NCBI GenBank assembly: GCA_903813345.2
Contig: CAIIXF020000005.1
Span: 13,893,375 to 13,957,374, forward strand
Direction of reading: 5' to 3'
From: Owenia fusiformis
Taxonomy: Eukaryota; Annelida; Polychaeta; Sabellida; Oweniidae
Length of the DNA stretch: 64,000 nt
The notes under the pieces are model-generated. The model worked only from the letters and a program-made list of their open reading frames with translations, made no database searches and was not told where the DNA came from. Positions 2,185 to 62,019 of this stretch are shown piece by piece. A program made the translations under genes and the position numbers. Each line of letters starts with the position of its first letter. Position 1 is the first letter of the stretch.

Positions 2185-2400
2185 CTAGGCTGCATTTTGA
2201 CATAATTTATCCCCATTATGATACAATATGAGTGCCACAGACACCATTAAAAATGCAATAATGAAATAACCATTTAGCTGAAGTCCAAATATGAGCATAG
2301 AAAGTGTCGTCGTAACAACCATTGCGCTAGCGACAACAAACAGACGTGTGATGTTGTTCCCATGTTTAAAGATTGCTGACATGATAAGACCACATAAAGC
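2185..2400 (-). CDS. SLC35A4: SLC35A4 exon 9 (terminal coding exon)
   Basis: After acceptor ATTGCAG the exon encodes 71 residues, including GLIMSAIFKHGNNITRLFVV and the last two membrane helices, then TAG at 2187-2185. The last codons and the stop overlap a degenerate unit of the adjoining 40-bp minisatellite. Confidence 0.93.
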   Translation of the reverse strand, partial: ALCGLIMSAIFKHGNNITRLFVVASAMVVTTTLSMLIFGLQLNGYFIIAFLMVSVALILYHNGDKLCQNAA

Positions 2401-8400: not shown

Positions 8401-11400
8401 CAAGACCTGTCCATAATCCAAATCAAAAACATCCAGTTAATTTACAATAAGGATAAACCAATTATCTCCCAGATTCTCACCTTTCTCTTAATCAAAAGCA
8501 AAAACATTCAGTTCTTTTCTAAATCTTGTCTGCAAATGTCGTCTGTGTTGTCCTTGTGATTATAAAACATTTGCTGATTGAATCTTAGCTATCATAACAG
8601 ACCCATGGGATATAAAACAGTCAAGACCTGTTCATAATCCAAATCAAAAACATCCAGTTAATTTACAATAAGGATAAACCAATTAACTCCTGTATTCACA
8701 CCTTTCCAAAACATCCTGTTGTTTTCCACAAATTAGGGATGTCACTGAGACTAAATAAGTTAGTTAGGACAATATTGGTTCTTTGATTACATTGTATATG
8801 TGAAGATAAATAACAACTATAACATTGACTCAATATTTGTCTATAATTGAAATGTCCAGACATTTGATTTCTGATAAAAATGTTCAGATTAGACAGGTCA
8901 CTTTTTCAAATCTGGTTGTTCACTGTTCAAATTAGGAGGTGTTCAGATTTCAAGTTTTTTTTAACATGGGAGTCAATGGGAGGAAAAAATGGGACCGAAA
9001 AAAGTGTTCAAATTGGAAGGTGTTCGGATTAGCCAGGTGTTCAGATATACAGGTTTTACTGTACATAAATTCTAGGTTATTACTGACATTTTAGAACTAG
9101 AAATGAAAATACAAAACTTCTAGGTTATTACTGACATTTTAGAACTAGAAATATAATACAAAACTTCTAGCTTTTGAAGAATAGGATCAAATCAAAAAGT
9201 CACTGTCCCTTGGTGGGAATTGAACCCACAACCTCAGGATGAGATAGGTAAGGCCATTGCCTCGCCTGCCTCATCCCTGGCTATACACATGCTACCCCCC
9301 CCCCCCCTTCCATTTGACCACTTACTTCTTTATGATGAGCCTGTATAACACAGCAGTTGATAAAATCTTCATATTACTGAGCACCTGGAATATAAACACT
9401 GTATAAAACAAAACAATTCCTATCAGGTCTTAGGGAAGGCCATGCCTAATGCATCATAGTTTCTAGTTTTCTATGGAAAAGAAGGTGTACCAGGTATATT
9501 GATCCTGATGAGAAAATGGGAAATTCCTCCAATGATGATCCCACCAGAGGTGATGGGAGCTCCCTTAACGAAAGATGGAATCTCCTTCCAAGGGTAAATG
9601 CTTCTTCAGCGAAATAATGGTGAAATATTCAGGACTGGTATATTCCTTATTTTATTTCACTAACAAACAATCAACAATACAAACAAGCAAACAAACAAAC
9701 AAACAAACCTGGAATGTTGCTGGGTCCATGTGAAGTTGCATGACGGCTGCAATATTATTGTTGATTGCATATATGATCGCAGGGACAGAAAACGCAAGAG
9801 CGTAACCAATAGTAACACTGGGAAAGCCATTTTCTCTTACTTCAGGCAGAAACATGGTCATTGAGATGCATATCTAAAAAATATAATTGTAATAATACAA
9901 TGCCTTTAATTACAGTCTATTGTGTGTATTGATTTTAATAAGTTTTTAGATCCTTCAAATGGCTATAGGATTATTCATGTTAAGAAATTATTTACTAGAC
10001 TCGATGATTTATGGCACAATAAGTATGACCGAAAACTCTATTCTGTTCTTTGTTATAGACCGAAATCACAAAGAGATTGAGGTATTTTGCAATGGCCAGA
10101 ATAAAATCCAATCCACATATTTTCCATAAATCAATAAATTTTCGATTAAGTTTTTGTTACCACTCATATGTGATAAAAAACAAGAAAAATAACTATTTGC
10201 ATTCATGAAATCTAGCAGTCATACACAATTATAGACCAGTATGTCAATTGTTCTGTGATGTCACGTATCATATTTGGATAACAATTAAAGATTTTAAAAA
10301 ACATTTAATTGTAGCAAAAGTCTAATCAATAGTCAAGAGATTATTGATGTATTACCAATATAGCCTAATAGGAAAAACATTTGGGTTAATTTACCTTTGG
10401 TTACTTGCAGGCCATTAGCCAGGGGTGTTAAAGGGGTGAGAATGACCCCCCCCCCTCCCTTATCGAAATTTTTTCACAATTCTTGATTGATTATGAGCCA
10501 AAATGGTCAAATGAGAACCAAGAATTACATATATGGTACAATATATCCTAACAGCTTTCAACAACAAAGCATACAATCAAAAACTCCTTCTAGTTTTACA
10601 CATAATTTATGAGAAATTAGAATTGCTTTGCAAACAAATTCAATGGGAACCAATTGCTAGTTACTCTCCACATTTTTTGATATAGAACTTTTTTCAATCC
10701 ACATTTCTCAATGGTCAATATGCATCGATTTATTTGATGCATCATTCAGTTATTTTTGCAGTATAAATTCATTAAAAACAACTTTCATTGAATGCACTGG
10801 CACAGTGTCCACCAAACAAAACCAAAAACCCATAAAGTATTCTTTAGAACATGCGCAGTCCTTTAAGTACATTTAGTCTGATCAGGTGGTATATCGTAAA
10901 CAAGTCTGTTTTAGAAGGTGTGTATGTTAACTCCCTTTCTTGACAAAGGATCCAACTTTTTTATAGTCAATTAAAAGTTCAATCTAAAGACAAGTGCTCA
11001 GGCGTGGTAATATCGTTTGACCTTCGCTTATATAATTTATCTTCTAAATGCCAGTGCATTAACCCAGAACTTATTTTGCAACTTTTTTTCATTTTAGAAT
11101 TTTGAAAAGTAGTTGTTTTTATGTTAAAGCAACAAAATGATTTAGTCTTGCAATGTTTTGAGTTATTATGTATATCTTTTTTAAGCAACTGACAAGGGTT
11201 CTATTAATTATGAGCATTAACAATGATAATAAATCAATTTGTCATTAACATTTTGAAATGTTGATTTTAAATTCCAATTTTTCCAACATGTAAACATATA
11301 CAAGGGGCGATCCATATATTCTGATAAAAATGCTCTCATTTTGTGATTTTTTCACATATCCCTTTCATTTCTTCAGAACATGTAGATTATGTAATTACAC

Positions 11401-17601: not shown

Positions 17602-17607
17602 TTTATT
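17602..17607 (-). terminator. Probable poly(A) signal of the cytidylyltransferase-SDR gene
   Basis: The minus strand reads AATAAA about 60 nt after the TAA/TAG-terminated ORF ending at 17666, a normal distance for an animal polyadenylation signal. Confidence 0.5.
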
Positions 17608-17665: not shown

Positions 17666-19093
17666 TTACTCCGTACTCAGACGTATAGTTGCTCCGCCAT
17701 CAACTACAAGAGATTGACCAATTACAAAAGAGGAATGCCTCCCGTCAGCTAAGAAATAAATTGCCTCAGCAATCTCAGATGGCTGACCAATTCTATTCAC
17801 GACGTGCTTGCTGCCAAGTGATGATATTAACTGATAGATGTCGCCACCAGCGACGTGACCACGACTGAGGCCACTGCGCAACATTCCGGTGTCTGTTGCT
17901 CCTGGAAGGACGGCATTCACACGGATGCTATCACGAGCATATTCCAGAGACATGGCGCGCGTGAGAACAGACACAGCTCCTTTTGAAGTGGCATATGAAA
18001 CAATACTTTCCGATGTTTGGTGTGCGTGAACTGAAGAAACATTGACGATGGAACCGCTGGATTTCTGCAGCATGTCGTGTGCGTATTTGCTAAGGAGGAA
18101 CATTGCTCTTGCGTTCACATTCATGGTACGATCCCAATCTTCGCATTCTGTGTCAACCACCTTTTTGCAGATCTGTATAGCTGCATTATTCACCAAGCAA
18201 TCAAGTCGTGTCTCAGTCGTCATCACGCTAGCTATTGCAGCCTGGCAATTTTCGGGTTTAGATATGTCAGTTTGGATAAAACGGTCCACATATGGCTGCT
18301 CGATATGTTTGATATCCATCCCGACCACGTACCATCCTTCTTGTTTGAATTTCATAGCAACGGCTGTTCCAATCCCTCCCCCTACACCAGTGATAAGAAC
18401 AACACGCCCTTCCATTGACTGATCATTTCGCATTTTCACCAGCAATCCAGCTTTTATGAAATCATCTTCCCAATCGATATCTGTACTCTCAATGTCGGAC
18501 ATTTTGATCATCATAGGCTTGGCTCCAATACGATGCTTGTGTTCTAGAAGACTGGCCTTGCTGAAGATATAGATACATGAGTTTTCTTCGTAGATTGGGT
18601 CCAGATCTTGGGTGGGTATCAATTCTTTAGGGTTATGATTCATAGCGCCACCATCCTTATTATACAGGCGTGTATGGTGAGTCATCACGGAAAAAGCGGA
18701 ATCATATCCCTCGTCATTATTCATAAACCGTTCCAGAGCGTCATCAATGGTTTTCACTGTGATCAAAGGATTCGTCACATGCGTCTGCAGGTAGTAATCA
18801 GCATCGTAATCATTCTTCGTTATGACGTTCATCAATAAGGCATTTGTGGGAACATCATCACCCTGTAGCTCCTTTGGACGTGGGTAGACCGTTACGTTGT
18901 TCTGGAAGTATTGTTCCAGCCCTTCAATAATCAGAGGAGAGTCGGTATCCACGACAACCTGGTTAATATGTTTACAGTCAAGCAGTGTCCTTATGACATA
19001 ATAGTACAGAGGCTTTCCCTCAAGAACTCTGTAGTTCTTTCCTGGAACTCTGCTCGAGTGGTGTTTAATCGGGACTATTGCGCACACCTTCAT
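17666..19093 (-). CDS. Cytidylyltransferase-SDR fusion (bacterial type)
   Basis: One uninterrupted ORF of 475 aa. Residues 1-about 222 are a NeuA-family cytidylyltransferase (CMP-acidic-sugar synthetase): VPIKHHSSRVPGKN (7-20), PRPKELQGDD (71-80), LQTHVTNPL (102-110), TQDLDPIYEENS (161-172) and the metal-binding pair in STDIDWEDDF (D205, D207). Residues about 229-475 are a classical short-chain dehydrogenase: TGVGGGIG (235-242), NNA (302-304), N327, S353/S354, Y367 and K371, then PGATDTGM; all catalytic positions are kept. The likely role is cytosolic or nuclear synthesis of a CMP-sugar plus an NAD(P)-dependent redox step; substrate unknown. It is not IspD/CRPPA: the signature is NeuA type. 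The domain pair recalls PtmB/PtmA of Campylobacter legionaminate loci. ATG at 19093 is the first residue of the conserved domain. A splice acceptor (CTACTTTCAG, ending at 19213) indicates a 5' UTR intron. Neighbours on the same strand are a 2-hydroxyacid dehydrogenase and SLC35A4. Confidence 0.9.
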   Translation of the reverse strand: MKVCAIVPIKHHSSRVPGKNYRVLEGKPLYYYVIRTLLDCKHINQVVVDTDSPLIIEGLEQYFQNNVTVYPRPKELQGDDVPTNALLMNVITKNDYDADYYLQTHVTNPLITVKTIDDALERFMNNDEGYDSAFSVMTHHTRLYNKDGGAMNHNPKELIPTQDLDPIYEENSCIYIFSKASLLEHKHRIGAKPMMIKMSDIESTDIDWEDDFIKAGLLVKMRNDQSMEGRVVLITGVGGGIGTAVAMKFKQEGWYVVGMDIKHIEQPYVDRFIQTDISKPENCQAAIASVMTTETRLDCLVNNAAIQICKKVVDTECEDWDRTMNVNARAMFLLSKYAHDMLQKSSGSIVNVSSVHAHQTSESIVSYATSKGAVSVLTRAMSLEYARDSIRVNAVLPGATDTGMLRSGLSRGHVAGGDIYQLISSLGSKHVVNRIGQPSEIAEAIYFLADGRHSSFVIGQSLVVDGGATIRLSTE

Positions 19094-19106
19094 GATTACA
19101 CGTATA

Positions 19107-19212
19107 AATGGTGGTTGCTAATGTATAGATGGTGGTTGCTAATGTATAGATGGTGGTTGCCAACGTACAGATGGTGGTTGCTATGTGATAGTAGTAACTA
19201 CTAAAGGCAGCT
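19107..19212 (-). repeat. 5' UTR exon with four 21-bp repeats
   Basis: Between the acceptor TTTCAG (19215-19213) and the ATG lie four copies of GCAACCACCATCTATACATTA on the minus strand (about 19107-19190). None contains an upstream ATG. The repeated leader could be a structured or expandable UTR. Confidence 0.65.
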
Positions 19213-21035
19213 CTGAAAGTAGAGAAAAACCAAATATTAGCTGTGCTTCTACATTTTCAATATGAACTTTAGCGTTCTATACTTATATTTACAATTGTTT
19301 ATACAACTTTGAGACTGAATCATTCCCTAGCCATTATATTTGGTATTTCCTCTACTTTACAGAATGTACTATTATAATACTTTACAGAAAGTTCTTTGAC
19401 CTGCTTGAAAGAAGCAAAAATGCTATAATTTCATCAAAACATTTTTCAATTCTAATCGTGGGAAATACATGTCTACAAAACAAATTAAATTCCAATTTCT
19501 TTAGAAGTTGTTTACTCAATGTAAAAATCTAAATAAAACAAGTGGTTTAGAATGTATACTTCACAAAAGAATTTAAAATTGCTTAAAATTGTTTTAAAAT
19601 TGCAAAAAACGTGTATAAAGACTCCATACGGTGTAAGTCTTTCAAAAATTTGAATGACGTATGTGACACATATAATTTGACCCTAACATTCTACAGCTGA
19701 CAAACAAATATACAGTGAAACCTATACATGTATATCCAAACACCTCTCAATGTGAATACTTTTTCTCAGTCCCACATTAATTATCTCCTATTGACTTACA
19801 AAATTACATGTATATAAAACCTTGAAATGTGAACACCTGCTAAAACAAACACTTTTGGACAGATTTTATTGCATTTACAGATGAAATTCTCTCCAATAGC
19901 TTTAGTGACTTTTTTTTAATTGACAAAGGTGTATAACTGTTGTATATTATTTTACTAAGGTAAAACGTATGTTATATTGCTTCCCTAGATAAGTGACATG
20001 TTCACATCTATGCACATGCTACAAAGGTATTTACAACAAGGCATTAACATGCAAAATGTCACCACATGCCATTTGTTACAAACATCAAACACCAACTGCT
20101 ACCTTTAGAACACCCTCCACAACAAAGGTTGGATACTATAACAATTTGTCAAGTGACATAATAAAACATAAGTGACTTAGTATGTAAGAGGCACTAACTG
20201 GTACCTGGGGCGGCCAATTTTAACCAATGATATTGTTACATTTTGGAAGTAAGCCTATGAAAATATAAATCCTGTTCTCTTGTCAACTTTCCAACTGTCA
20301 GGTAAAGACAACATGAAATGATTACAGATTTCAACTTTAGTGTCAAACCATCTGTTATAAATGTTATATAATGAGTCTTAATTAATTATATGGCTAGGTT
20401 TGCCAATGATAATTAACACGCAGTCAGTAACCATGAAACGTATTGCATTTAATATAAGGAAGGGTGTCTAATTATCAACAGTCATAGAAAAAACAAAATG
20501 AATTTCTTTATTGTTTGAAATGTCAATTTGTCTTTTGATCACTTGAATTATTTAAAAAATCAACACTTCACTAACAAAACATCTTTTAGATTTCCAGAAA
20601 AGTCAAAATATCATTTTTCTTCATTTAAATATTATACTTTCAAAACTCATTTTTTCTACTACATGCAATGTTAATAAAACTTAAGTGCTATCTTGCCATG
20701 GTGAGATGAATATTGCCTAAAATCTAAACAAAGTCCTTGTTCATACTACCTAAGTTTCAAATCAACAAAAACTCTAGGCCAGTAACAATATACAAGATAC
20801 GAGGGAAGACCAAAGACTTCATGGATGACTTGTACTGTACATAACAACAAATTCATTTCATCAATATAAGACAAAGAATTGGTTTGATCAAACAAATATG
20901 CTATATTCTGGTTCAAGTAGATAACAATTACTTTTGTTGGCTTTTTATATTTCATTTATACCCAACTTCCCAATTATTTTATACCCAACAATGTCCAAAT
21001 TTATCAAAGTCCTCTAAGAGCTCAATTACAAGAGA
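19213..21035. other. Region between the fusion gene and the dehydrogenase
   Basis: Contains a decayed pogo-like element at about 19710-19875 (ACAGTGAAACCT start, GGACAGATTTTATTGCA end, inner GAACACC motifs) and, at about 20030-20115, a dispersed repeat (ACAAGGCATTAACATGC, ATGTCACCACATGCCATTTG) with relatives at about 57660 and 59000. No further gene seen. Confidence 0.55.
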
Positions 21036-22025
21036 CTAGTCTGACTTGTCTTCATCCAAGTATTTCTTCAATTTGTCTATGACAAGGAAGCTTGTGCGAT
21101 CCACAGCTTCTTTAGTATTAGAGCAGTTATGTGCTCCAAACACGGTGTTTTCAAATTGACGTAGTTCATCATCTTGCGGCAATGGCTCCACTTCAAATAC
21201 ATCCAAAGCAGCACCAGAGACATACCCAGAATGCATCAGCTCAACTAAATCTGATTGGTTAATTATAGGGCCCCTTCCAACATTTACAATTTTGACACCT
21301 GGCTTGGCATTCATCATGACTGATTTGTTGATGGAGTGATGGGAAGAGGGAGTAAGGGCACAACAGACGACTATGAAGTCACAATTGCTTGTTGCCGTTT
21401 GCAAATCAGAAATGTCAACTGCATGAATAGACTCGCTAAACTCTATATCAGCATCACATGTTATACGTCCATTCTCCTTTCTAAAGAACGGATCAACTGC
21501 GTGGATCTTAAGACCAAATGCCAGAAGGCGATGAGCGATGCATCTTCCAATGTTACCAAACCCAATCAGAGCAACCTTTTTATCAGTTAATGACATTCCA
21601 CATGGCTTATACCAGCCACCCTGGCGGACTTTGCGGTCAATGGCCATGAACTCTCTGGCAAGGGCAATCACATAACCGACAGCAACATCAGCGACTTCAT
21701 TATTGAACATTCCAGGAGTGTTACTAACAGGAATGTTATATTTATTACAGGCATCAAAATCAACATTGTCAGTCCCGACACCCCATTTCATTGCGGCTTT
21801 GAGACGGCCTTCCTTCCCAGCCTTAAAGACTGCCTCGGTGGCCGGGTCATCCCCTATGATCCAAGCATCAAACTGGGGGACAAGATCAATCAGTTCTTTC
21901 ACAGATAACACCTGAGTAAAATCTGGGATAGTAATGTCCATGTTATATTCAGACAACTTTTCACGATACTCATCAATTCTTCCGATCATTGGAGGACATG
22001 TTAGTAGGACTTTGTATTCGGCCAT
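21036..22025 (-). CDS. D-2-hydroxyacid dehydrogenase (phosphoglycerate dehydrogenase-like)
   Basis: Uninterrupted ORF, 329 aa from the ATG at 22025 (context CAAAATGG). The frame stays open a little further upstream but with no other ATG. This is a full-length NAD-dependent D-2-hydroxyacid dehydrogenase: WGVGTDNVD (81-89), Rossmann motif GFGNIG (155-160) with Asp178 as the NAD-type acidic residue, and the catalytic triad Arg251 (NVGRGP), Glu280 (DVFEVEPLP) and His299 (GAHNCSNT). The family oxidises or reduces 2-hydroxy/2-keto acids. It lacks the ACT regulatory tail of animal PHGDH and is much shorter, so it is not the serine-pathway enzyme. No targeting peptide is seen. It lies 1.9 kb upstream of the cytidylyltransferase-SDR gene on the same strand; by position I infer it acts on the acid end of the same sugar or its precursor. 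A CAG acceptor-like site lies about 35 nt before the ATG. Confidence 0.9.
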   Translation of the reverse strand: MAEYKVLLTCPPMIGRIDEYREKLSEYNMDITIPDFTQVLSVKELIDLVPQFDAWIIGDDPATEAVFKAGKEGRLKAAMKWGVGTDNVDFDACNKYNIPVSNTPGMFNNEVADVAVGYVIALAREFMAIDRKVRQGGWYKPCGMSLTDKKVALIGFGNIGRCIAHRLLAFGLKIHAVDPFFRKENGRITCDADIEFSESIHAVDISDLQTATSNCDFIVVCCALTPSSHHSINKSVMMNAKPGVKIVNVGRGPIINQSDLVELMHSGYVSGAALDVFEVEPLPQDDELRQFENTVFGAHNCSNTKEAVDRTSFLVIDKLKKYLDEDKSD

Positions 22026-22040
22026 TTTGCAAATGTTCAA

Positions 22041-23240
22041 GTTATTAACACCTGGAGCTGGTTGTATATAAAGTTACTAAGTCAGTTTTATATACAATTT
22101 GATATTGTTGTTAAATCTTTTATTTCTTTTTAGATCTTTTATTGATGCTTAAGAGACTTCGACTGTTATCACCAAGAGTTCATAAATCGATCTGCAAGCA
22201 CACAAAAAAGTTTTATTGGCAAGATTTACAATTTCAAGTGATTCTGAAGGTCGTAATCATGAAGCAGCTAGAGATGTTCATGTATTTATTTACCTTATTA
22301 TGTTGAAGTCAAATTGCTTGAACAGATCATGATCACTTGGTAATAACAGAGTGACTTAAAAAGTTATCTGTATATATCTTGGATTACCAAAGTATAAAGT
22401 TTTGAAAATCAAACTGCAAAATGAGTATGGGCCTATTATAATATCGTATTAAAATGTATAAGACAACACAAGATAATGAGTTCTAGTTTTCGAATTATGA
22501 ATCCAGGGGCGTCAGAAGGATTTGCCAAGAGTGGGGGGGCGACTTTGGATATGGATGGGTCATGTGTGAAGCACGCCGCTCTGGTGTTTTAGAAAACTAG
22601 CTTGACTTTGACTAAAACAATATACATGTAATATGAGAAATGAGATATTCTATGCTTGATGTAGACTAGATAATGACATAGTATCATTTCTGTCATTATT
22701 ACACTTTAACCTTAATAAGCTCTAAAACTTTCAATTCTGGGCTTGGTTTCAAATCTAAAAAAAGGGTAGGTGTAAATATTTTCGAAACAAATGCGTGATA
22801 TATACACATATTTTGTACCAAATGTGTGACATAAACGGCAATCGCGTGCAAAGACCGAACGCAATGCGTTCGCTTTTTTCGCCGTTTGGTATTTTACCAT
22901 GTCGGCATTTTCACAAAGAACAATTTTTAAAAATATCAACAAAATGGGTGTTTTGCGTGATATTTGATCATACACGCTAAATTGATGCGTGATTTCTATT
23001 TTTCCAGCAAATGCGTGACAATCACGCCTAATGCGTGAGGGTTGACAGGGCAGCAAATGTCTTACTACTTGAGTGACTCTCAAGTCAATTAAGTGGCCAA
23101 CAACTACTACAGTACCATTACACAACAACTTAAACAACCTTTAATATACAATAAACACTTCAATAACCATAATAAAAATCCTAGTTTTGATAAAATGACT
23201 AGCCTATTTATTTTATGTACAGAAAAAGTGTAGTGATTTG
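22041..23240. other. Intergenic, repeat-derived
   Basis: Segment 22735-23045 carries many copies of ATGCGTGA / TCACGC and an open minus-strand frame of 141 codons with no recognisable domain; I regard it as repeat-derived. AGGGGCGTCAGAAGGAT near 22505 resembles ends of other dispersed elements. Confidence 0.45.
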
Positions 23241-23247
23241 ACTATAA

Positions 23248-24566
23248 ATAGCAAAGTCAGCTAGTCGTGCCCTGGCAGTGTTAACATGTAAATTCAAAGC
23301 TGCAGGTGGAATGGACTATGCAGTTTATACTAAGCTATATGATACAATAGTCCAACCAATCATCAACTATGGTACCTCAATTATTGGTCTTAATGAGCAT
23401 CGTTGTATCAATAATGTACAAAATAAAGCAACAAAAATATTCCTAGGAGTAGGCCAAAAGACGAGCAATGAAGGAGCCAGAGGGGACATGGGCTGGAGCC
23501 CCCCTATCCACAAACAAAAATTGGAATGTGCCCGACTATATCTGCGACTCCACAATATGGAAAATACCAGATTAAATAATCGGATACATATATGGTCGTT
23601 AAAGGTGCTACAAATAGTGCAGGGGGGCCATTCAACGATCATCGACAAGTGTCAAAATATATTTAGGTTTGGATATTTCATCAAGACTAACATATATTTT
23701 CATTATCTACAAAGAAACCCTCTGGTTGAACATTATTTCAGCTGATATTCCTCTTGAAACATGGCGGATCTTAAAAATCTATAAGTGGGACTCCCTTTAT
23801 AGAAGCTTTGAATTGAATTTACACTTCTTAATGCTGAAATGGATAGTTTATACATACATTTTATGAAAATAGGTATGTCAAAGAAGGTATTAAGCCAAAT
23901 ATTGACCTGATAGCTCAGAAAAAATAAAAATTTTCGAATTTTCTCTCTACAGTCCTTATTGCCCCTTTAAGAAGAAAATCAAGTTGGAATTCTCGTACTA
24001 AACATTTCATTGAATCTTGTGGTATACTTTTGAATAATCAGTACATTGAGACAAAACCATGTATCAAAGCTATTAAAAATCACCTACAGACTACTGATCC
24101 TTTTCTTCGAAATATCTGGAATGATAAAAATAATGAAACTAATGGCAATAAACTGAGAACATATCGCCAATTTAAATATGGTGCATCAACTGAAGCATAC
24201 ATTGAAATGTTTATGCCACGCCATCATAGAAGTATTCTTGCAAAACTGAGAACTGGAACATTGAAACTACACATTGAAACTGGCCGTTATACCAATACAC
24301 CTCTTGAGGATCGAAAATGTGCTTTATGTGACTCTAATGAGATTGAGGACGAGATACACTTCACTCTCAAATGCTCTCACTACAATGTTTTGAGGAAAAA
24401 ATTTCTGGCTATTGTTAATAAGCTGGCCCCTAGCATTGATACTGGTTCAAATGATCATATTCTGCTGTTTACTAGACTTATGCACACGCCCTGTATACAG
24501 AGAGCTTTTGCAAGTACATTATTTAAGATGTTCAGTAAAAGAAACTTTGATCTAGAAAGACTTTAA
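23248..24566 (+). pseudogene. Non-LTR retrotransposon (LINE) relic: RT C-terminus
   Basis: Block 23248-23598 encodes the end of a LINE reverse transcriptase (motifs TIVQPIINYGTSI and NNVQNKATKIFLGV, then RGDMGW). After an intervening MITE, block 23971-24566 resumes in the same kind of sequence with the C-terminal zinc-binding motif CX2CX9HX4C (CALCDSN...IHFTLKC) and stops at TAA 24564-24566. The 5' end, endonuclease and most of the RT are missing, as expected of a 5'-truncated copy. It is on the opposite strand to the host genes. Not functional. Confidence 0.88.
23599..23970. mobile_element. TTAA-flanked MITE inserted in the LINE
   Basis: TTAA at both borders, with ends TTAAAGGTGC and GCCCCTTTAA as short imperfect inverted repeats. 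The LINE coding sequence breaks at the left border and resumes at the right one, so this 372-bp piece is a later insertion. Tip sequence TTAAAGG is shared with the 6077-6647 element. Confidence 0.7.
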
Positions 24567-25145
24567 CAGTACCTCTATTTGAGATAATTCCATAACAACA
24601 AATTATAATGTATATTTTCTCAAACTGTATTCTATTTGTTGATATTCAATTATACATAAGTTGCTTGTCTGGGGATAAAGGCCATATGATATTGATTCTG
24701 CCACTTTACAGCACTTTTACATACTATTTAGAACTGTGATACTGCCAAAATATATACAAGATGCAAACCTGTAGATCCACTGTGATATGGGGGACCCCTC
24801 AGGAGGGTATTGGGCCAACCAGAGGGCTCTTATATCACTGATTAAGCAGGGTTTCTCTTTCCATTTGCTCCCAGGAACATCAACCTTGGGGAAGATGTCT
24901 CCTCTTAGTAAATGGAAGTAAACAGTGAACTCAGTATACAAAAATTATGGTCTCTATCACTGTCTTATTGTGCATTTAGTAATTTTCACATGGGAATTTT
25001 AATATTACCCACACATGTATCAACTTGGTGTCTCATAAGCCGGCATCGGCTAGAAGCAATGTTTTTAAAAAAAGTGTTTTAAATGTATTTTAATATTATT
25101 GCTTGTGACACAAAAATAAACTATATTAAACTAAACTAAACTATA
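24567..25145 (+). repeat. LINE 3' UTR remnant with (AAACT)n tail
   Basis: The segment after the LINE stop ends in CATAAGCCGGCATCGGC and then AAATAAACTATATTAAACTAAACTAAAC, a typical LINE tail. The middle (about 24700-24960) may be inserted or host sequence, because it holds an exon-like minus-strand frame. Confidence 0.55.
24769..24905 (-). CDS. Orphan exon-like coding segment, unidentified
   Basis: Minus-strand frame open for over 70 codons, richer in GC than its surroundings, bordered by an AG (CTAAG) at about 24906 and a GT (CTACAG|GTTTGC) at 24768. It reads FPKVDVPGSKWKEKP then CLISDIRALWLAQYPPEG and SQWIYR. I recognise no family. It could be an exon of an undetected gene, a retained fragment of an insertion in the LINE tail, or chance. 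Confidence 0.3.
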
Positions 25146-28100
25146 GGCGAAATGAAAAAGAATCCCTCATTTAAAACATGGGGAGTAAGTTACCCCCCTA
25201 TCTAATAGTACCTATATTAAATATTCTTATACAGTCTACTTACTTAAAGGGCATACATGTGCAGTATTCCTTCAATACTTGGTAATGAAACATTTACCAT
25301 TGAGTGGCAAAATTGACTTTTATATCCTAGCTTGCCTGAATGACAACATCATCTGGTGACAACAAGACATGTCATTAACTGTCACAAAAGAAGCGAAATA
25401 ATGAATCACTCACCCATCCTTATGAACAGAAGTAACTAACTTTGAAATTATCTAGGAATCTGAAAGTGAAATTCTGATAATTGAAAATCCGGGATAACAT
25501 TAAAGACTAGATATCAAAAATTATATCTACAATACTAACGTTTGAAACAGATAGTCAAATTATTAGAGTGAGAATCTAAATTTCAAAATCTGAAAAAAGG
25601 AACCTAAAAATGAATGAAATAAACAACTTACAAGCAAGAAATGTAATAAAAATCCTCCCCGATATATGCAATATATGTCTACTATAAATACTTCCTTCAC
25701 TCTTCCGATTAGTTAAATGTATAAGAGAAGCTGATTCAAATTCAAACCTCCCTTAAAATCAATAAATATTGTTCGGGTTAATATTTGGATAAGCTATACA
25801 TACCAACTTAAGAATTGTATGAGTGTCAAAGGGATTTAAATCGTGGCAAAACTTGACTCAACAATAGATCCTGAAAGTACTTGCATCACTCTTTATCCTA
25901 ATCACCTAGCTACATTGCCCTCTGACTTATACAGACAATTTTGCAGTTTTAACACTGATGAAATCTCAATGATCTTAAACGCAGCTTTCCAGGTCTTTCA
26001 AGTGAGAGTAAATGTGTTATGACAAAATATAGGTGACTTAAGAGGATACATAGGATCAAAAAATGATTTCGGATTCAGAGTGTATATAAAACTAATTTCT
26101 TGGCAAGGGTATTCAATACAAATCATTTTGATCAAAATAGGGAAATTGCCACTTGATGATGCAACTTATCAATTCAACTCATTTATGTTAATGTTAAATA
26201 GCTCTACTGAGCCTTTTAACAAATTGAAATATTATAAGTTTTAAATAACATGTTTGTAAAATGCTTTTTAATGTGCACTCGTGTTTTAAATAGTTAACAT
26301 GATACATGGGAACAAATATTAAATCAGGATATCCCAATATACAATGGTCCACACCCTGATTTGAATAATACTTGAGAGCTGCTCAAGATCCTGGTATATA
26401 ATATAGGTAAACATGTAGTACAGCAATATGAATGTGTGTGTAACCATGCTGCTCATAATCCTATATTACACAATTGTTTCCATAATAAATCACAAATTGA
26501 ATGGCGAAAGACGCCAAGCTAGTGGTGGGTTTGGGCGGGTCCCTCCTTCCAAGAGATTTTGAAGAAATTATATTTGATTGAGTGCTTTTTAAGATCAATG
26601 TTGACCCATTGTATTTACTTTCAAAAGAGAAAAAAATATTTTCATTGGAAAAAATTAACAAATATGACCTAAATTTTGAAACCCTTGCTTGACCCCCTAC
26701 TCCCCCCCCTCCCCCTTAGAAATAAATCCAGATTTGGGTCAGATTTTGGTTCATTTTTGTCTGAAATTACCTGAAATTCCTGAAGACTTTAGCCATGCAA
26801 GAGATAATATCGAAAAGTGACTCATGAATTTAACAGATAAGAGGAAGAAAATAAACTCAATCGTGAACGTATAGATTATGGCTCCAATCAATATATCAAA
26901 ATTCATGAAAAACATATTTAATGATGTAACAAAAATGAATGAAGACCAACATTCGCAAAAATTAATTCAACAATATTTTTTGCTCATAACATTTCAAGTA
27001 AGTCAATTTTCTAAATACCTAAGCAAGTAATACGTGACAGTCATATGTGAAAGTCTTACGTGACATTAATGCCCGTTAACATCAAAAGCTTATCTGCTGT
27101 CAAGAAACCCCTAGCCCTTGAGGAAATAACAATTAACAACAATATGATTATCAATTACCACTTAACATCAAAAATAATCATTTCTATTTCATATTTTTAT
27201 ATTTCATCTAGCAATAATGTACATATTTAATCCATACATCACATACAAACTCACAACTTACTGGAAGTGAAAAAATAAGTGAAAAAGTAAGTGAAAAAGT
27301 AAGTGAAAAAGTAATATCATTCAAATGATCAATAAACTTATCAAACTACATAACAACACAAACTTTATCAATCCTTAAATCTGTTGTGCGTTATATTTAG
27401 CATAATACTCGTATACCTTATGCTTATATGGATAGTCTAGAAAGATTCACCTTATAAAGTATTATGGAGTGTCACAAATGTAATGCATTATATGTTGGGT
27501 CTTACACATGTTTTATATGCATTTTTATATACCTTTGTCCTTATAATGTACATGTATACATACTTTATTTCATCTTAAGAGACCCCCCCCCCGCTCCCCA
27601 CCCCAATAAATTACCAATCAAACTAAAATGGCATCAGGCTTGGTGTAAGTGAGTTTATTTACATAAAACATCTAATTTTGAACACTATAATGTAAACACC
27701 TTACAATATAAACACTTCTTAATATGAACATTATTTACATTCCTTAATATTATACTATGAATGCTCTTTGCAGGATTCAGAGATTAAGACAAATATATTG
27801 AAGGTTGTATGATGATTGATCGTATGATGTACATTTATATGTATAATAGATTCAAGTTAATCAGTCATAAAAACATAAATTTAGTTTTGAATATGGATTT
27901 CATATGGCATTAAAGAATAACAATTTTCAATAAAAATTAAAATGGCTAAAGGATATTCAAGTTATAAACAAAAAAAATATATAATTGATTCATAATTTGT
28001 GATAATTTTACTTCTAAAATGTAATAGGCAGATCATCGTAATCCCGGGTTTTTGAGTTATGACACAGACATATATACAGACAGATGGATGGATGACAGAA

Positions 28101-28860
28101 TGGCAGTTTCTCTACGTCCCTTCTTGAACAAAGACAAAAAACTATGTACAGTATATAAAGACTAACAAATTACAATATTTTTTACATTGAAACGTTTAAT
28201 TGGAATGTTGGTTTTAATATAAAAAGATGCAGATTTAACAATTTCTAGTTGTGTGCTTCTACGAATCGTATTTCAAACATATAACCCAATCCAACACTTT
28301 TACTATTTAATGATTTTGATATGTTGAGTCTGAAAGTTTCAAATTTGATATGGGGTTCTAAGAAAAATAATTCAAAATCTAGAATATATTGAAAAATATG
28401 GCACATAGATGTTAAATCATTCATTTGATTTTTTGGGGGGTATTTTGACACTTTTTATTTGAATTTTTTGGTCATGTTGACACTTTAAAAAATGACCTTT
28501 TGTCAATTTTGCGATAACTTGAAAAAGGCTCAAGTAAATTCCATGGGCTTTCTCTTGAAAATTAATGAAAGGATAATCCTTAAGTTCTTAAAGTAATCTG
28601 GCAAAAAAATAATAAAATAGAACCTTCCACTTTTCAATTATAATGAATTTAGTCATTTCTGCATCTAAAAAGCTTCAATAACCATATATGGTCAGATAAT
28701 TCAATCCTATAGACCAGACAATATCCCTGAATCTAACATTCTATTATGTGCATTATATAATACCCTGTATTCAAAATACTATATATAGTAATAATGATAA
28801 CTATACTCTTGCTAGGATAGATGACTTAACTTATAATGCTGATTTAATGTTATTGACTTC
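25146..28860. other. Intergenic, no gene seen
   Basis: AT-rich. Contains a C-rich tract at 26697-26717, a GTGAAAAA(GTAA) microsatellite at about 27265-27312, and pogo-like decay (GAACACT...TAAACACC) at about 27675-27735. No coding exon recognised on either strand. Confidence 0.5.
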
Positions 28861-28869
28861 AAATGAATT

Positions 28870-29260
28870 CACCATGGGCCTTTCATGGGAGTTTCATTTT
28901 TAAATAAATGGCAGCTCCTTATAAATATATTTTATGCGACTGCAATTTTAACTATACATTTGTTGAATTTTGATTGGTTTTTCCCTGGTGGGTAAAGCTT
29001 GACCATAGAATTACACATGTTACATGTATCTCTCAATCAAAGAGGATATGCAGACCTCTTGCTAGGCTTTTAATGGACCTTTCATGGGAGTTTCAATATC
29101 AAATAAATGGCGGCTCCTTGTAAATATATTTTATGCAACTGCAATTCTACCTATATACATTTGTTGAATTTTGATTGTTTTTTTCCCGGTGGGTAAAGCT
29201 TGAACATAGGATTATCTCTTAATCAGAGGATATGCAGAACTCTTGCTAGGCTCTTACTGT
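28870..29260. repeat. Two tandem copies of a ~195-bp repeat
   Basis: Both copies contain CCTTTCATGGGAGTTTCA, AATATATTTTATGC, TTTGTTGAATTTTGATTG, GGTGGGTAAAGCTTGA and TCTTGCTAGGCT in the same order (first from about 28870, second from about 29072). Confidence 0.8.
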
Positions 29261-29466
29261 ATAAGTGGTAAATTTCCCTAATCATTTAATTTGCCATTGC
29301 CTTATTTCTGCCAAGTTCGGAAAATTAAATATCAGAAATATTATCTTCATAATGTTGTCCAATGGGAAGTTTCTTGTCATTAGGAAAATAAAAAATTAGA
29401 AAAATGATAAACTTTGACCATTCGGCAAATTAACCACTCGGATTAAATACCACTTATACAGTAAAC

Positions 29467-29628
29467 TGTGGAACAGCACCGCAGTCTTATTAGCTCCCAC
29501 CACAACCTATTGGCAAATATTGATTGTTTCCACAGTCTAAACATGACTGAATAGACAATAACTGCATGTAAAAAGGATATAATACAACATAAATATGATT
29601 TATCATGATTGAACGGTTATACTGAACG
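29467..29628. repeat. Dispersed repeat, copy 1 (related copy at 38874-39101)
   Basis: Shares ACAGCACC(G/A)CA, CTATTGGCAAAT, GTTTCCACAGTCTAAAC, GCATGTAAAAAGGATA and GATTGAACGGTTAT with the 38.9-kb copy, in the same order. Confidence 0.8.
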
Positions 29629-30154
29629 ACTATGTATGAACCACTCATTCCTATCATTCAGGAAGGTGAAAACAAACTATTGAACTATTGAGCATTATAT
29701 CAAGTAAATGTAGTGTCCTTGTTATCGGCCACGTTATGATACTCTGCCCTCACTGCAAGTTTGCCCTGAGCTGATGAAGTCATCACTTCAATCAAGAAAC
29801 TTCACAAAATGTTAGACATCCTACAGACAATTGTTCAAGGATACTTATTTTGTATTTGCTTCTTGATTGTCTATTAAATGATATTTTGTGACGACGTCTT
29901 TGACTGGTTGTCTATTGATTGACTGATTGTCTTCTTGACCTATTATAACCCAGGTACATGTATAAAATAAATGTACATGTATATATCGGAATTTTTGGAG
30001 TTTTTGGCTTATTGTCTCATAAAAAGACATTTGTAAAATGTATGGCTTATTGTCAATCAAATGATCTATTGTAATGACCCTAAGACTGATTGTCTTTCAA
30101 TGAAATATTGTGATGATCTCGGATAGAGAACTATGAATCCAAACATGTCAAGAA

Positions 30155-31303
30155 TTAGAGAGCCATAAAGTCTTTAAAGGTCATAAATGGGCACATTTCT
30201 TTAAGCTTTGATATCGGACTCCCATTATAAATATCAACCTTTAGTCCAAGTTTTTTAACATCTCCAAACATCTGCCTGAATGCTGGCACGTGAACAGCAT
30301 TACTATTGGGGACATTGTACACATCGCCTTTTTGTTGGTAGCCTTTGAAGAAATAGTTCGGATTATCATCTGGTGTTTCTTTAATTTTAAGAACACCTTT
30401 GTATTTCTCAGATTCTTTTATATGTTCCACATAGTTCATATCAATCCCCATTATCAGGATTTTATCGTATCCCATGAGAATGCCAAACCGTGTTGCTAGG
30501 TTACCAGTTGAGATTGCAGATACAATAGAGACAATATGGCGTCCTTTTCTGTAATCTTCAAATACTTGGACTCTGGGGTCGTTTTTAAATTGTGGTGCCC
30601 TTCCATAAAAGTTGCTACGTGTGAAGAACTTTTTTATTCCATTGGTAGAAGAATTGTTTATGAGCTCAATAATGTCTTTGGATCTGTCAACATTAACTAC
30701 GGTGTCAAAGGAGAAATAGTATGTAGGATACCAATTAATTTCGCTCCAGTACCTGTATGCCTGGTTCATTCCCAATGAATCTACACCTTGAACTTCATGG
30801 AAATTGAATCCCTTCAAGGAAGGTCCATTTCCAAATATGACAAGCTTACGATACATCTTACAAGGTTTATCCCCTTCTGGACACCATTTAATATTACACG
30901 TTCCAGTCAATGGTTTTCCATCTTTGGCCTGTATACATTGCTGCATGACGTTACCATCCTTATCTCTAGCGATACACCAGCCACAATTCTTGCATTTTTG
31001 ACACTCTCCCTCCATGTAGCCACTACAGTCACACTCTGATAAATCATTGGTCAGAGCAACATATCGATTATGAATAGGATTCAGCGATGTCTGGGTATCT
31101 CCCGTTTTTTCAAAAATTGGTTTTGCCTGCGCAGGTTCACATTGAGGTTGAGACTGACCTTGACCTTCGCAGTTACATTTAGCTTCTATGCTGCGATTTT
31201 GAACCTCAAATTTTTCCATGTGAGAAGTTGACGACAAATATAGGATAACCACAAGTCCCGCCACCCCTCCAGTCAAGACCATCAGTAGGTAATTGGTGCG
31301 CAT
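30155..31303 (-). CDS. Type II membrane GT42/DUF115-like glycosyltransferase
   Basis: Uninterrupted ORF, 382 aa from ATG 31303. A short cytosolic tail is followed by one membrane anchor (about 5-24), a stem with potential N-glycosylation sites, and a Cys-rich module (about 91-148) containing CQKCKNCGWC, somewhat PSI-like. The catalytic domain (about 152-375) begins KLVIFGNGPSLKG, the nucleotide-binding opening of Campylobacter Cst sialyltransferases (GT42) and of DUF115/MptE-like (Maf) proteins. Matching later motifs: LGMNQAYRYW (177-186), STGNLATRFGILMGYDK then MGID (265-287), H338 as a candidate for the Cst general-base histidine, and NGSPISKLKE (360-369). By family, the donor would be a CMP-activated acidic sugar; by topology, it would act in the Golgi lumen. 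Acceptor unknown. A splice acceptor (TTTCCTTTCAG ending at 31338) 34 nt before the ATG implies a 5' UTR intron. It differs from animal GT29 sialyltransferases: no L, S or VS sialylmotifs are seen. Confidence 0.85.
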   Translation of the reverse strand: MRTNYLLMVLTGGVAGLVVILYLSSTSHMEKFEVQNRSIEAKCNCEGQGQSQPQCEPAQAKPIFEKTGDTQTSLNPIHNRYVALTNDLSECDCSGYMEGECQKCKNCGWCIARDKDGNVMQQCIQAKDGKPLTGTCNIKWCPEGDKPCKMYRKLVIFGNGPSLKGFNFHEVQGVDSLGMNQAYRYWSEINWYPTYYFSFDTVVNVDRSKDIIELINNSSTNGIKKFFTRSNFYGRAPQFKNDPRVQVFEDYRKGRHIVSIVSAISTGNLATRFGILMGYDKILIMGIDMNYVEHIKESEKYKGVLKIKETPDDNPNYFFKGYQQKGDVYNVPNSNAVHVPAFRQMFGDVKKLGLKVDIYNGSPISKLKEMCPFMTFKDFMAL

Positions 31304-31337: not shown

Positions 31338-32645
31338 CTGAAAGGAAATAGGCCAAAGGTCAGTCTCATAAATCTGTTTTTATCATTTATATGTTTCCTC
31401 TTGTCTTGAATGTCTATTCCAATAATCTGTAAATGGCTAATAAGCCTGTTTAAAGCATATATATAATCTATCAGTGATAGAATGGATGTTCTTTTTTGAC
31501 AAAAGTTCTCTGACTCAAATTCTAAAGTTCAACCTCATGCCCTTTCTACTAAACTCTCTGGTTATAATTGGGATTTCATTTTATTTTACAACAGAATGGC
31601 CTCTTTTATTAACCAATGAAACTGGATATATTAAACTATATAAGCTAGATTTATGATGTCATAGTTTGCAGGCAGCGATATTTGTGAACAGAATTAAAAG
31701 CTTTTGAAATTAGCAATAAGTTAATCCTATTTTCCCTCATGGAACTGTATAATTGATAGCAAAACCAATACAATATTAGTGGCATTATTTCCCAATTCAT
31801 TTACTGATTGCTTCTCACAGGGATATGCACAATAATACTTAAGTTAACTTACAAACTTAAGCTAACGAAAAAAATTACATCCTAGAATTTCAATCCAATC
31901 CATCAAATGCTATACTTGCAAATTCAAACTTCCTAAAAATGGAATACTAAAAGACCCAGATTTTAATTGGTATCAACTAACGTATAGGAAGTGGAAATGA
32001 GTTGAAATCAATGACACCACGAACTAATGAATTAATCCATGAAAATTACATTAAAAATTGTATCATGCGAAACTACCTTAACATTAACTAAAACCATATC
32101 TTTAGATTTTCGCTGGAAGGTAGAAAAGGAAGGAAGGTAGATATAATGATTAAGGTAAATACTTAAGGCATATAGCCAACATATCAACGAGAAATTTATG
32201 TTATATACCTAGATTGAATATAATCCAAAATATATACAATATGCTTAAATTTTAGATTCTTAACATACAATTCAAGATCCAATCAGCCACCGTGAATGCC
32301 TCTATTTCCAATACTGAATAGGAGACGTCATAATTCTAAACCCTTTCTTCAATCATTTAAGCAAACAGGAGTGCTGTGCTGTGGTGATTATACAGAAAGT
32401 TGCCAATACAACTCTTTCAATGCATATTTACTTGCCTTATAGAAACAGCTCAGACAGTGTGAACAAATATATGTATGCCCATTCAACTGAAAGGTGAAGT
32501 TTCTGGGTTACTGAAACATCATAAGGAAGAGCTCAGATGATTTTTTTCTCCATCAATTATTAAAAAAACCTTCACTTTAAACTAGTACTCTGAGTAAAAA
32601 ATGTCCCATTGATTTATGACTTTATGGATACCTACAGACAGTATA
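31338..32645. other. Upstream flank of the glycosyltransferase gene
   Basis: Presumed to hold the 5' UTR intron and promoter. I cannot place the first exon or TSS, and no coding sequence is recognised. Confidence 0.4.
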
Positions 32646-60669: not shown

Positions 60670-62015
60670 CAGTTGTCCATGCAGAGTCAGATCCTGATTT
60701 TTCGACTCATGGGCCAAGGTCAAAACAGTTATTTTCTGGGAAGATCCCTGCCTGCTGTCCAAAAAACTATGATTTCATTTATAAAGGATGTTGAAATATG
60801 TTGATATTCAAGAATCAACATTTATGAAATTCATTATACAGGAGGAGGCATTTAAAAATGTTAATAAAATCAACTAATCAGACACAGATAAGTTCCCATT
60901 TATTGACACATTATATATGTCTCTGGTCCAGGGATCCTCCCAAGCTTGACAAGACCCATGAGGGTAAAAATATTAAAATCAAGATTTATTAGGATGCCCA
61001 CCCACTCACTCACCCATCTGCCCTGCAATCTGATCACAATATAGCACCCAAAGGTGCGATTAAAACAGTTACTTGAGCAATACGTCACTCAACCCACCTC
61101 TATGTAATGTTCGTAATCTGCATTAGGGATATTAAAATTATACATGAAAATACATCAGGTACTTTTCATTTTAATTGCATGACACAGGTATGTTGAAAAA
61201 TTGAATAAAAAATAAGAGAATAACATATTTCTCATATTCACTTTTTATGTCCCTTTTGCAGATTATTCCTCCACACGGTTACATGACTAAAGTTACACAA
61301 TTTTAAATTTACAAAATTCACTATAATTTTTGTTGTATTTCCTGGTTTCATCGCACACATACAATTCTGTATAGTGCATCACTAACATATAAAATATTCT
61401 TTCCACACTATATTGTACAAACAATATGTGATATAATTCTCAACCAGTCTATGTGGGATTAAAAAACGTCCAAAAACAAACATGTGTGTAATAATTTAAT
61501 AAATGTGTTTACAACAGTTTCAATCCATTTTCTGCTACCATGACAACTACACAAATTGCCATCAACAAACCTTTGGGGAGTTTGGCTTCCTTTTTTCCAT
61601 CTAGGTCAATTAATATCAAAAATATGTATTTTGTGAGTAAAATGGTTCCATCCTCCACTCCACACAAATTGGTAATTACATTATAGTGGGTGGGTGGTCA
61701 AAAAGCTGTTTTTGATGTGTGTTTTTTTGTTTAACTGACAAGTCTATACCTAGTTAGGCCACAAATATAGTTTTATTTCAACGTTGGTTGCTGAAATGGC
61801 AGGAAATTCAAACATTTGAAAATCAGAATACCAATGACTTGTGAGATATTACAATGTTATTAGGTTAGAGTGTTTCAAGCTCAAGCTGTTAAATATAAAT
61901 CATTTTGTTAGCATCAAATCACACCTGCAGTTTAGTATTCCTATAAAGAAACCGGGTTATTAATTATGATTAAATACTGGTATAATTAAATATAATGTGC
62001 ATTGTTAAAAACACC
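60670..62015. other. No gene seen
   Basis: AT-rich, probably intron or intergenic sequence. Short ORFs have no recognisable product. Confidence 0.45.
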
Positions 62016-62019
62016 CTGC

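Follow-up and report, generated by a model that had tools for sequence, protein, structure and literature searches.

Sialylation in animals (NANS, CMAS, SLC35A1 and GT29) follows a logic of CMP activation, movement by a CMP-sugar transporter and transfer by a type II enzyme of the Golgi. Both sialic acid supply systems are lost in Lophotrochozoa, according to the available part of PMC5811610. The EpaA-EpaB system of Acinetobacter baumannii prophages, as described in the accessible sections of PMC12053666, alters an acidic sugar with a CTP_transf_3-oxidoreductase fusion and a second oxidoreductase. The Maf domain is like CstII and takes CMP-Neu5Ac and CMP-Kdo (PMC11339370, accessible sections). 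The genes described here, from the annelid Owenia fusiformis, share the logic of animal sialylation. They differ from it in that the catalytic genes have bacterial relatives, and that neither NeuB/NANS nor a second CTP_transf_3 gene was found in the genome by an exon-by-exon search. The design of EpaA-EpaB is likewise similar, although its fusion contains an aldo-keto reductase, a D-2-hydroxyacid dehydrogenase is missing, and the substrate is pseudaminic acid (PMC12053666, same sections).

The window analyzed comprises 64,000 nt of assembly GCA_903813345.2 (contig CAIIXF020000005.1, 13,893,375-13,957,374, forward strand), and corresponds to 13.89-13.96 Mb of C5, a chromosome-scale contig with further matches up to 41.6 Mb. 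It contains three minus-strand genes, encoding a fusion of a CMP-sugar synthetase (CT) with a short-chain dehydrogenase (SDR), a D-2-hydroxyacid dehydrogenase (DH), and a DUF115/GT42-like transferase (Table 1). An earlier note had described this trio as linked, single-exon and surrounded by animal genes. All three reading frames are intact and uninterrupted, with the expected Pfam domains and motifs, and the genes are spread over 14 kb with gaps of 2 kb (CT-SDR/DH) and 8 kb (DH/transferase), linkage and strand being kept. The gene next downstream has several exons bounded by GT/AG splice sites, and the locus is therefore not a bacterial contig. The same note had read the lack of introns as a sign of foreign origin. 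The coding sequences do lie in single frames; however, dozens of SDR genes in the Owenia genome also match within one open frame, which makes this a weak sign, and the case for foreign origin is consequently built on trees and synteny.

Table 1. Features of the Owenia locus, in positions of the window.
Feature	Position	Strand	Remarks
CT-SDR fusion CDS, 475 aa	17666..19093	-	CTP_transf_3 and adh_short_C2 above cut-off, one open frame
CT domain, N-terminal	about 18434-19093	-	CTP_transf_3
SDR domain, C-terminal	about 17669-18433	-	adh_short_C2
Splice-acceptor-like site, 119 nt upstream of CT-SDR ATG	19213..19236	-	Pyrimidine tract and AG; sequence scan
AATAAA polyadenylation signal, 58 nt past CT-SDR stop	17602..17607	-	Sequence scan
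DH CDS, 329 aa	21036..22025	-	2-Hacid_dh_C
Type II membrane-anchored DUF115/GT42-like transferase CDS, 382 aa	30155..31303	-	ATG at 31303
Transferase architecture	within 30155..31303	-	TM helix at the N-terminus, then a Cys-rich stem (CGWC) and a catalytic domain with GNGPSL
Splice-acceptor-like site, 34 nt upstream of transferase ATG	31338..31361	-	Sequence scan
SLC35A-type nucleotide-sugar transporter, intron-bearing, next gene downstream	2185..13385	-	PF04142
Transporter exons	13279-13385, 12858-12963, 9709-9873, about 9325-9384	-	Exon reading
Transporter exons, continued	5225-5372, 3406-3499, 2953-3008, 2185-2400	-	One or more small exons probably missed

The fusion protein scores 87.8 bits for CTP_transf_3 (Pfam cut-off 22.6) and, in the same frame, 173 bits for adh_short_C2. 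Membership in CTP_transf_3 identifies the CT domain as a predicted CMP-sugar synthetase. Residues S13, R15, K19, N20 and D205/D207 are invariant in 17 aligned sequences, and the DID motif occurs in all 45 cassette CTs (see below), including that of the animal; we take the nucleotide loop and DID, presumably the metal site, to have their usual roles. In a profile search against solved structures, the best relatives are NeuA/CMP-NeuAc synthetases (5.8e-23), and the cassette CT is closer to NeuA than to KdsB. Nevertheless, 44 of the 45 sequences, the animal's among them, carry T before QD (one was unscored) where the three NeuA sequences compared carry R, so that these 44 lack the residue adopted within this analysis as the mark of NeuA/CMAS. 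The SDR domain retains TGxxxGxG and S/Y/K. The DH scores 152 bits for 2-Hacid_dh_C and retains GxGxxG and R/E/H, the roles of the latter being assumed here. Against NCBIfam, the SDR reaches 188 against a cut-off of 341 for aldose dehydrogenase, and the DH 179 against 454 for PGDH; both fall below every curated cut-off among the 25 matches listed for each, and their substrates can therefore not be named. The acceptor-like site preceding the CT-SDR start codon suggests an intron in the 5' UTR.

The transferase of the window scores 22.3 bits for the MptE-like family PF01973, under the Pfam cut-off of 34.6. All 10 rows of the transferase alignment (9 animal, 1 bacterial) match this family at E<=0.1, the best value of 7.4e-14 possibly being that of the bacterial row; Pfam CST-I matches one row of 10 (E 0.048). 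A profile search retrieved CstII (2drj, E 3.8e-5), and CstII also occupies the first two Foldseek ranks for the structure model (pLDDT 68.5), with E values of 5.5e-6 and 2.1e-5 and TM scores of 0.54 and 0.53 on the target. By fold and sequence profile the protein is thus a predicted GT42 enzyme. It shares the GNGPSL and GY..I.L.GID motifs with CstII, Maf and DUF115 proteins, but its identity to CstII is about 16% and, unlike these proteins, it is a membrane-anchored enzyme of eukaryotic type. The profile alignment stops short of the position equivalent to H188, which we take to be the catalytic histidine of CstII. The Owenia genome holds nine transferase copies, eight of which lie apart from CT-SDR and DH on four other chromosomes. 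In the 21 of 36 paralogue pairs with computable dS, from which the window copy is absent, dN/dS is 0.11-0.37; this shows purifying selection on most copies, where measurable.

A search of bacterial collections revealed that CT, DH, SDR and DUF115 form a recurrent cassette in Anaerolineae-type Chloroflexota. Of 400 Chloroflexota genomes, 40 carry the CT subfamily (E<=1e-30), a count that includes the seed. In the 40 neighbourhoods of these genes, some of them clipped by contig ends and a weak second CT match in genome G354 being left out, DH was found in 40, SDR in 38, DUF115 in 34 and all four in 34, of which 33 have them on one strand. A stricter count, which leaves out loci L063 and L066 with generic SDRs of 26-27% identity, gives 32 of 40. 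Twenty arbitrary stretches of equal size from 12 of the same genomes contained no CT, DH or DUF115 and a single, generic SDR, and in none did the four occur together (0/20). The cassette has in common with the animal set the four protein families, the highest identities and the linkage. By contrast, its CT and SDR are separate and its genes contiguous, whereas the animal has these two joined in one protein and its genes spread out, with different order and spacing; no bacterial CT-SDR fusion was found in 44 loci. The animal transferase further differs from the cassette DUF115 proteins in its TM anchor and Cys-rich stem.

The best matches of the animal proteins are members of the cassette (CT 52%, SDR 57%, DH 47%), in searches that covered Chloroflexota, plasmid and viral/phage collections and, on the animal side, the Owenia genome. 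In that genome, the closest relatives reach at most 36% identity for the SDR domain and 32% over the longest match for the DH (two short pieces show 40% and 50%), and an assignment to ordinary animal families was dismissed within this scope. Phylogenetic trees, from which the short L067 CT and L063 and L068 SDRs were left out, place the CT within the cassette family against NeuA-type outgroups (100/100), the SDR within the cassette clade (95/97; subclade 97/98) and the DH with cassette DHs of Thalassovita and Sulfitobacter (100/98). All three animal sequences have long branches. The nearest relatives of CT, SDR and DH are thus cassette members; for the transferase, sequence points weakly in the same direction. 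Where matched, its identity to cassette DUF115 proteins is 19-27%, and 10 of the 34 counted loci have no direct match to it at E<=1e-6, the DUF115 counts deriving from a bacterial query. A common origin with CT-SDR and DH is accordingly less sure for this gene.

The affinities to possible donors are split, CT and SDR being nearest to Chloroflexota and DH to Alphaproteobacteria. CT-DH-DUF115 versions of the cassette occur on some alphaproteobacterial plasmids, at loci where an SDR of cassette type is missing; the SDRs that these loci do have (31%) group outside the cassette clade, and other plasmid SDRs show 36-42% identity, among 12 of 136 records listed. A single donor operon is, for these reasons, unproven. 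Among 72,556 plasmid records, the animal transferase domain is matched by just two (E<=1e-3); in each of them a CT is encoded next to a dehydrogenase as well. Neither the CT nor the transferase had a match in phage records. The viral contigs yielded one SDR-only locus and one phage-like contig with a CT of 39%, with no match to transferase or DH, and a viral vector was dismissed since nothing in these matches speaks in its favour. The proposal of the earlier note that the linked set was acquired horizontally agrees with the recurrence of the cassette, the control stretches, the trees and the plasmid search; descent of the Owenia genes from bacteria as a functionally linked set is well supported.

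Genes that could supply or handle a CMP-sugar were sought in the rest of the genome. For NeuB/NANS (PF03102) the exon-by-exon profile search returned no candidates, while 9 of 14 control genomes matched; at its sensitivity, an IspD control was seen as one 43-position match and the absence of NeuB is unproven. GT29 (PF00777) gave no match in Owenia, nor did the control searches. The sole CTP_transf_3 match is the CT-SDR gene itself. The earlier note had called for a search for NeuB- or aldolase-like genes elsewhere. On C11, a single open frame aligns with PF00793 (KdsA/DAHP-synthase) from profile position 9 to 268 of 270. Judging from this profile match, the gene may act as a substrate supplier. 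The joined exons of the neighbouring transporter score 116 bits for PF04142 (cut-off 27), the last exon alone 26.6, below the cut-off, in the genome search. The three solved relatives that it has all transport CMP-sialic acid, and PF04142 matches 10 exons, spread over some six sites in the 498 Mb genome. This adjacency was spotted post hoc.

These data probably reflect the ancestral uptake of a bacterial cassette that is still used to make a CMP-activated acidic sugar, move it to the Golgi and put it on glycans. An annelid ancestor would have gained CT, DH, SDR and probably the DUF115 transferase from bacteria. In the cytosol, an acidic 2-keto sugar would be prepared by CT-SDR and DH, which would also activate it with CTP. 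Import of the CMP-sugar into the Golgi would fall to a nucleotide-sugar transporter, plausibly the adjoining SLC35A-type protein, and the type II GT42-like transferases there would pass the sugar to glycans. The activities, the placement in cytosol and Golgi and the joint action of the four in the animal are all predicted. The product is best read as a non-sialic acidic sugar. The earlier note had suggested an acidic sugar that differs from ordinary sialic acid, and this suggestion is sound in light of the resemblance of the CT to CMP-NeuAc synthetases, the transferase to CstII and the neighbour to CMP-sialic acid transporters, together with the failure to find NeuB. For the chemistry, we tentatively favour formation of a C2 ketone by the two dehydrogenases (aldose to aldonate to 2-keto-aldonate), and NeuB-type PEP condensation would then not be needed. 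This scheme is weakened by the C11 match and by an HpcH aldolase, which 3 of 44 loci have next to the CT.

The identity of the sugar admits two other readings. It is rather doubtful that the product is Kdo-like or 3-deoxy-heptulosonic, with a foreign C11 synthase feeding a CMP-Kdo-like CT and the dehydrogenases tailoring the sugar. The C11 match is near full-length, reaches 230 bits and is unique in the genome, which has no other CTP_transf_3 match to serve as KdsB; yet the gene is unlinked to the trio, the CT resembles NeuA more than KdsB, and KdsA was not found in the vicinity of any of the 40 Chloroflexota cassettes. In Thalassovita, KdsA beside the cassette is accompanied by a KdsB and a KpsF of its own, so that the cassette CT looks like another enzyme. 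A nine-carbon product of the NulO type (Neu5Ac, Kdn, Pse or Leg) is unlikely. NeuA structures are the nearest to the CT, EpaA-EpaB has the same design (PMC12053666, in the sections accessible), and 13 of the 40 Chloroflexota neighbourhoods have NeuB at a distance of about 8 kb or less. However, 12 of these 13 have their own canonical NeuA-HAD, NeuB is not nearby in the other 27, some of them clipped by contig ends, and the T before QD and the lack of a NeuB match in Owenia also argue against it. Since some bacteria place a separate NeuA and NeuB, or KdsA and KdsB, beside the cassette CT, the cassette sugar is probably neither sialic acid nor Kdo.

That the foreign genes have unrelated functions, with dehydrogenases of general metabolism, transferases using another donor and linkage as a relic, is quite improbable. 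The dispersal of eight transferase copies would fit such a history, but CT and SDR are fused into one protein, the DH lies close by with intact motifs, and a fold of GT42 type speaks for a CMP donor. An assembly artefact or bacterial contamination, to which bacterial-type proteins in single open frames might point, has a negligible probability and was dismissed given the chromosome-scale contig and the intron-bearing animal neighbour; the signal-anchor and Cys-rich stem of the transferase, its nine dispersed copies, the acceptor-like sites and the polyA signal also stand against it.

Among the literature matches listed, neither the cassette nor an animal with such genes is described, which is not proof; a tardigrade match for DUF115 was dismissed, as its domain is DUF1151. 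The words 'sialic' and 'cytidylyl' are absent from the main text of an HGT compendium (PMC13342648). A bacterial CMP-sugar cassette that is undescribed among those matches is thus present in about a tenth of 400 Chloroflexota genomes. It is conceivable, as a bolder reading, that Owenia has a complete CMP-acidic-sugar route to a sugar new to animals, a 2-keto acid whose ketone the two dehydrogenases form in place of PEP condensation, with transfer by a GT42-like enzyme family in the Golgi, that this route replaces the lost sialic route of Lophotrochozoa, and that the cassette is a third CMP-ulosonate branch beside NulO and Kdo. If the proposed uptake holds, the worm should contain a hitherto unknown CMP-sugar together with a keto acid that is labile to acid. 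If true, an acidic-sugar pathway would have been regained from bacteria where sialic acid supply had been lost (Lophotrochozoa; PMC5811610, available part). If functional, the set would mean that a complete glycosylation module can be taken up by an animal, coupled to a CMP-sugar transporter and enlarged by extra transferase copies.

The three genes, which the earlier note had read as an intron-free, bacterial-type and horizontally acquired CMP-sugar pathway, lie in the window, which spans C5:13893375-13957374 of a 498 Mb assembly of 525 contigs. The genome very probably belongs to an annelid: the erythrocruorin-linker family PF16915, which is specific to annelids, has three matches in it above the family cut-off, one of which contains a stop. 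A reading of the open frames in the window agrees that all three, on the minus strand, are intact with uninterrupted coding parts. The single-exon structure does not decide the origin: alone it says little, because dozens of genes for short-chain dehydrogenases (SDR) in this animal genome also match in one open frame. Both dehydrogenases keep their motifs, and a motif scan likewise finds the metal site of the CMP-sugar synthetase domain (CT). The sequence scan detected no acceptor-like site and no AATAAA within 400 nt for the D-2-hydroxyacid dehydrogenase (DH), and no AATAAA within 400 nt for the transferase. Elsewhere in the window, two open stretches between the DH and the transferase look, by eye, like a non-LTR retroelement remnant and have no Pfam match; a set of exons seems, going by a motif, to belong to a TRPV-type channel, and the two exons searched have no Pfam match; and a tandem repeat appears in the ORF lists with open frames on either strand.

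Features of the window, with positions in nucleotides unless stated otherwise
Feature	Position	Strand	Length	Remarks
SLC35A-type nucleotide-sugar transporter, multi-exon	2185-13385	minus		canonical splice sites, sequence reading
CT-SDR fusion	17666-19093	minus	475 aa	CTP_transf_3 domain + SDR
AATAAA	58 nt past CT-SDR stop			sequence scan
Acceptor-like site	119 nt upstream of CT-SDR ATG			sequence scan
D-2-hydroxyacid dehydrogenase	21036-22025	minus	329 aa	intact ORF
Open stretches	23248-24566	plus		two stretches
Transferase	30155-31303	minus	382 aa	intact ORF
Acceptor-like site	34 nt upstream of transferase ATG			sequence scan
TRPV-like exons	~53.7-58.0 kb	minus
Tandem repeat	61986-62288			CNHEGCNLAIHVY units

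Scanning genome contigs with the CT domain led to a single locus, from an Anaerolineaceae MAG, in which a CT, a sulfatase-like gene, a DH, an SDR and a DUF115 protein are all found inside 5.2 kb; identity to the animal proteins is 49% for CT, 32% for DH and 52% for SDR. Of 400 Chloroflexota genomes, 40 carry this subfamily according to a CT profile search, the seed being one of them. The 40 neighbourhoods, which cover about 8 kb on each side of CT and in several cases end at contig ends, hold a DH in 40, an SDR in 38 and a DUF115 gene in 34, the DUF115 counts including the bacterial query as well as the animal one. All four types of this cassette occur together in 34/40, on one strand in 33 of the 34; the strict count is 32/40, as two of the 34 depend on generic SDRs (26-27% identity). 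With the animal transferase alone as query, 24 of those 34 loci give a match at E ≤ 1e-6. Twenty control stretches of equal size, at arbitrary hand-picked positions in 12 of the same genomes, contained no CT, DH or DUF115 gene and one SDR, a generic one. CT matches were also present in 61 of 72,556 plasmid records, and in each of the best five of these 61 CT adjoins a dehydrogenase and the plasmid carries a DUF115/MptE-like gene; SDR was detected in two of the four plasmid loci scored by tblastn, both 31% identical to the animal SDR. An independent search with the animal transferase domain (E ≤ 1e-3) matched two of the 72,556 records, from Thalassovita and Acuticoccus, both within the best five CT plasmids. 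The phage-like contig L069 (IMGVR_UViG_3300001533_000114) has a cassette-type CT (39%) beside genes that, named by eye, are methyltransferase-like, transferase-like and phage structural.

In the trees, the cassette SDR clade (95/97) includes the animal SDR, which shares a subclade (97/98) with those of genomes G247, G354, G212 and G022, and the two plasmid SDRs are placed outside the clade; other plasmid SDRs show 36-42% identity among the 12 listed of 136 records. The animal DH groups with the cassette DHs of Thalassovita and Sulfitobacter (100/98), and the animal CT lies within the cassette family as against NeuA-type outgroups (100/100), its position inside the family being unsure. All three animal proteins have long branches. 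Within the animal's own genome, the SDR relatives reach at most 36% identity, the longest match to the DH is 32% identical and two short fragments are 40% and 50% identical, and the sole CTP_transf_3 match is the CT-SDR gene. No bacterial CT-SDR fusion occurs among 44 loci. The donor lies outside the sampled bacteria; judging from the resemblance of CT and SDR to Chloroflexota and of DH to alphaproteobacteria, there may have been more than one.

The transferase is present in nine copies with open frames throughout, on contigs C1, C3, C5, C6 and C10 of the animal genome. An N-terminal hydrophobic segment is visible by eye in all nine; eight also have a Cys-rich stem, which contains CGWC or CGFC and has no Pfam match. 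A profile search retrieved CstII (E 3.8e-5), and the structural model (pLDDT 68.5) has CstII as its first and second fold matches and human ST8SiaIII as its third; the window copy scores under the Pfam MptE-like cut-off. The profile alignment to CstII stops short of the catalytic His of that enzyme. The dN/dS ratios range from 0.11 to 0.37 in the 21 of 36 pairs with computable dS, which exceeds 1 in many. The other 15 pairs are saturated and give no ratio; because they include all eight with the window copy, its split from the other copies is old.

Searched across the whole genome, the nucleotide-sugar transporter family has 10 exon matches, spread over about six places; the weakest match sits in the window and alone scores under the family cut-off. 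The joined exons of this gene reach 116 bits to PF04142, with at least one exon probably missing, and have just three solved relatives at E ≤ 0.01, all CMP-sialic acid transporters. It resembles SLC35A4. It is the immediate downstream neighbour of CT-SDR, its start codon 4.3 kb from the CT-SDR stop on the same strand; the chance of such proximity is below one in a thousand, by arithmetic from the number of places only and for an adjacency noticed afterwards. Even were the adjacency accidental, the animal has the right class of transporters.

The CT profile is nearest to NeuA/CMP-NeuAc synthetases, followed by KdsB. The cassette CT is nevertheless an extra synthetase in some bacteria, because NeuB with a canonical NeuA-HAD, or KdsA with its own KdsB, is found near it. 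NeuB lies beside it in 13/40 Chloroflexota neighbourhoods (one a fragment at the edge) and is accompanied by NeuA-HAD in 12 of the 13 (two of the 12 cut; families via Pfam); KdsA comes with its own KdsB and KpsF in Thalassovita and was found near 0/40 Chloroflexota cassettes. Two kinds of CMP-sugar synthetase stand side by side in those 12 of 40 neighbourhoods, among them L052, L054-L057, L059-L061 and L063. Searches of the animal genome gave no match for NeuB (by profile) or GT29, absences that are not firm because IspD, the intended control for intron-split genes, gave no more than one match, 43 positions long and interrupted by a stop, and because a valid control was lacking for GT29.

We favour a route in which the SDR and the DH would oxidise an aldose to a 2-keto-aldonate. 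Neither enzyme attains a curated cut-off. The loci of Thalassovita and Sulfitobacter contain SMP-30 lactonases, as does the vicinity of one Chloroflexota cassette, and a PF04199 cyclase (metal hydrolase) adjoins the cassette CT in three loci (L053, L058 and L064), whose SDRs rank among the closest to the animal SDR. An HpcH aldolase adjoins CT in 3/44 loci (L012, L065 and L066), and outside the window the animal genome has a sole PF00793 match, of 230 bits in one open frame (G000:C11:27662649-27663527, plus strand); both count against the two-dehydrogenase route. By this match the C11 gene looks KdsA- or class I DAHP-synthase-like, and such genes are, to our knowledge, normally absent from animals. 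It may be a further gene of foreign origin that feeds the pathway, and could be the source of a 3-deoxy-ulosonate.

According to Petit et al. (PMC5811610), Lophotrochozoa lost both sialic acid systems, and GT29 is found among protostomes in arthropods only. None of the papers listed in our literature search describes the cassette, or such genes in animals; EpaA-EpaB (PMC12053666) follows the nearest described logic to the animal gene set. The sugar of the pathway is probably new. CMP-ulosonate glycosylation is itself known; here an animal has probably taken it up by horizontal transfer and rebuilt it.
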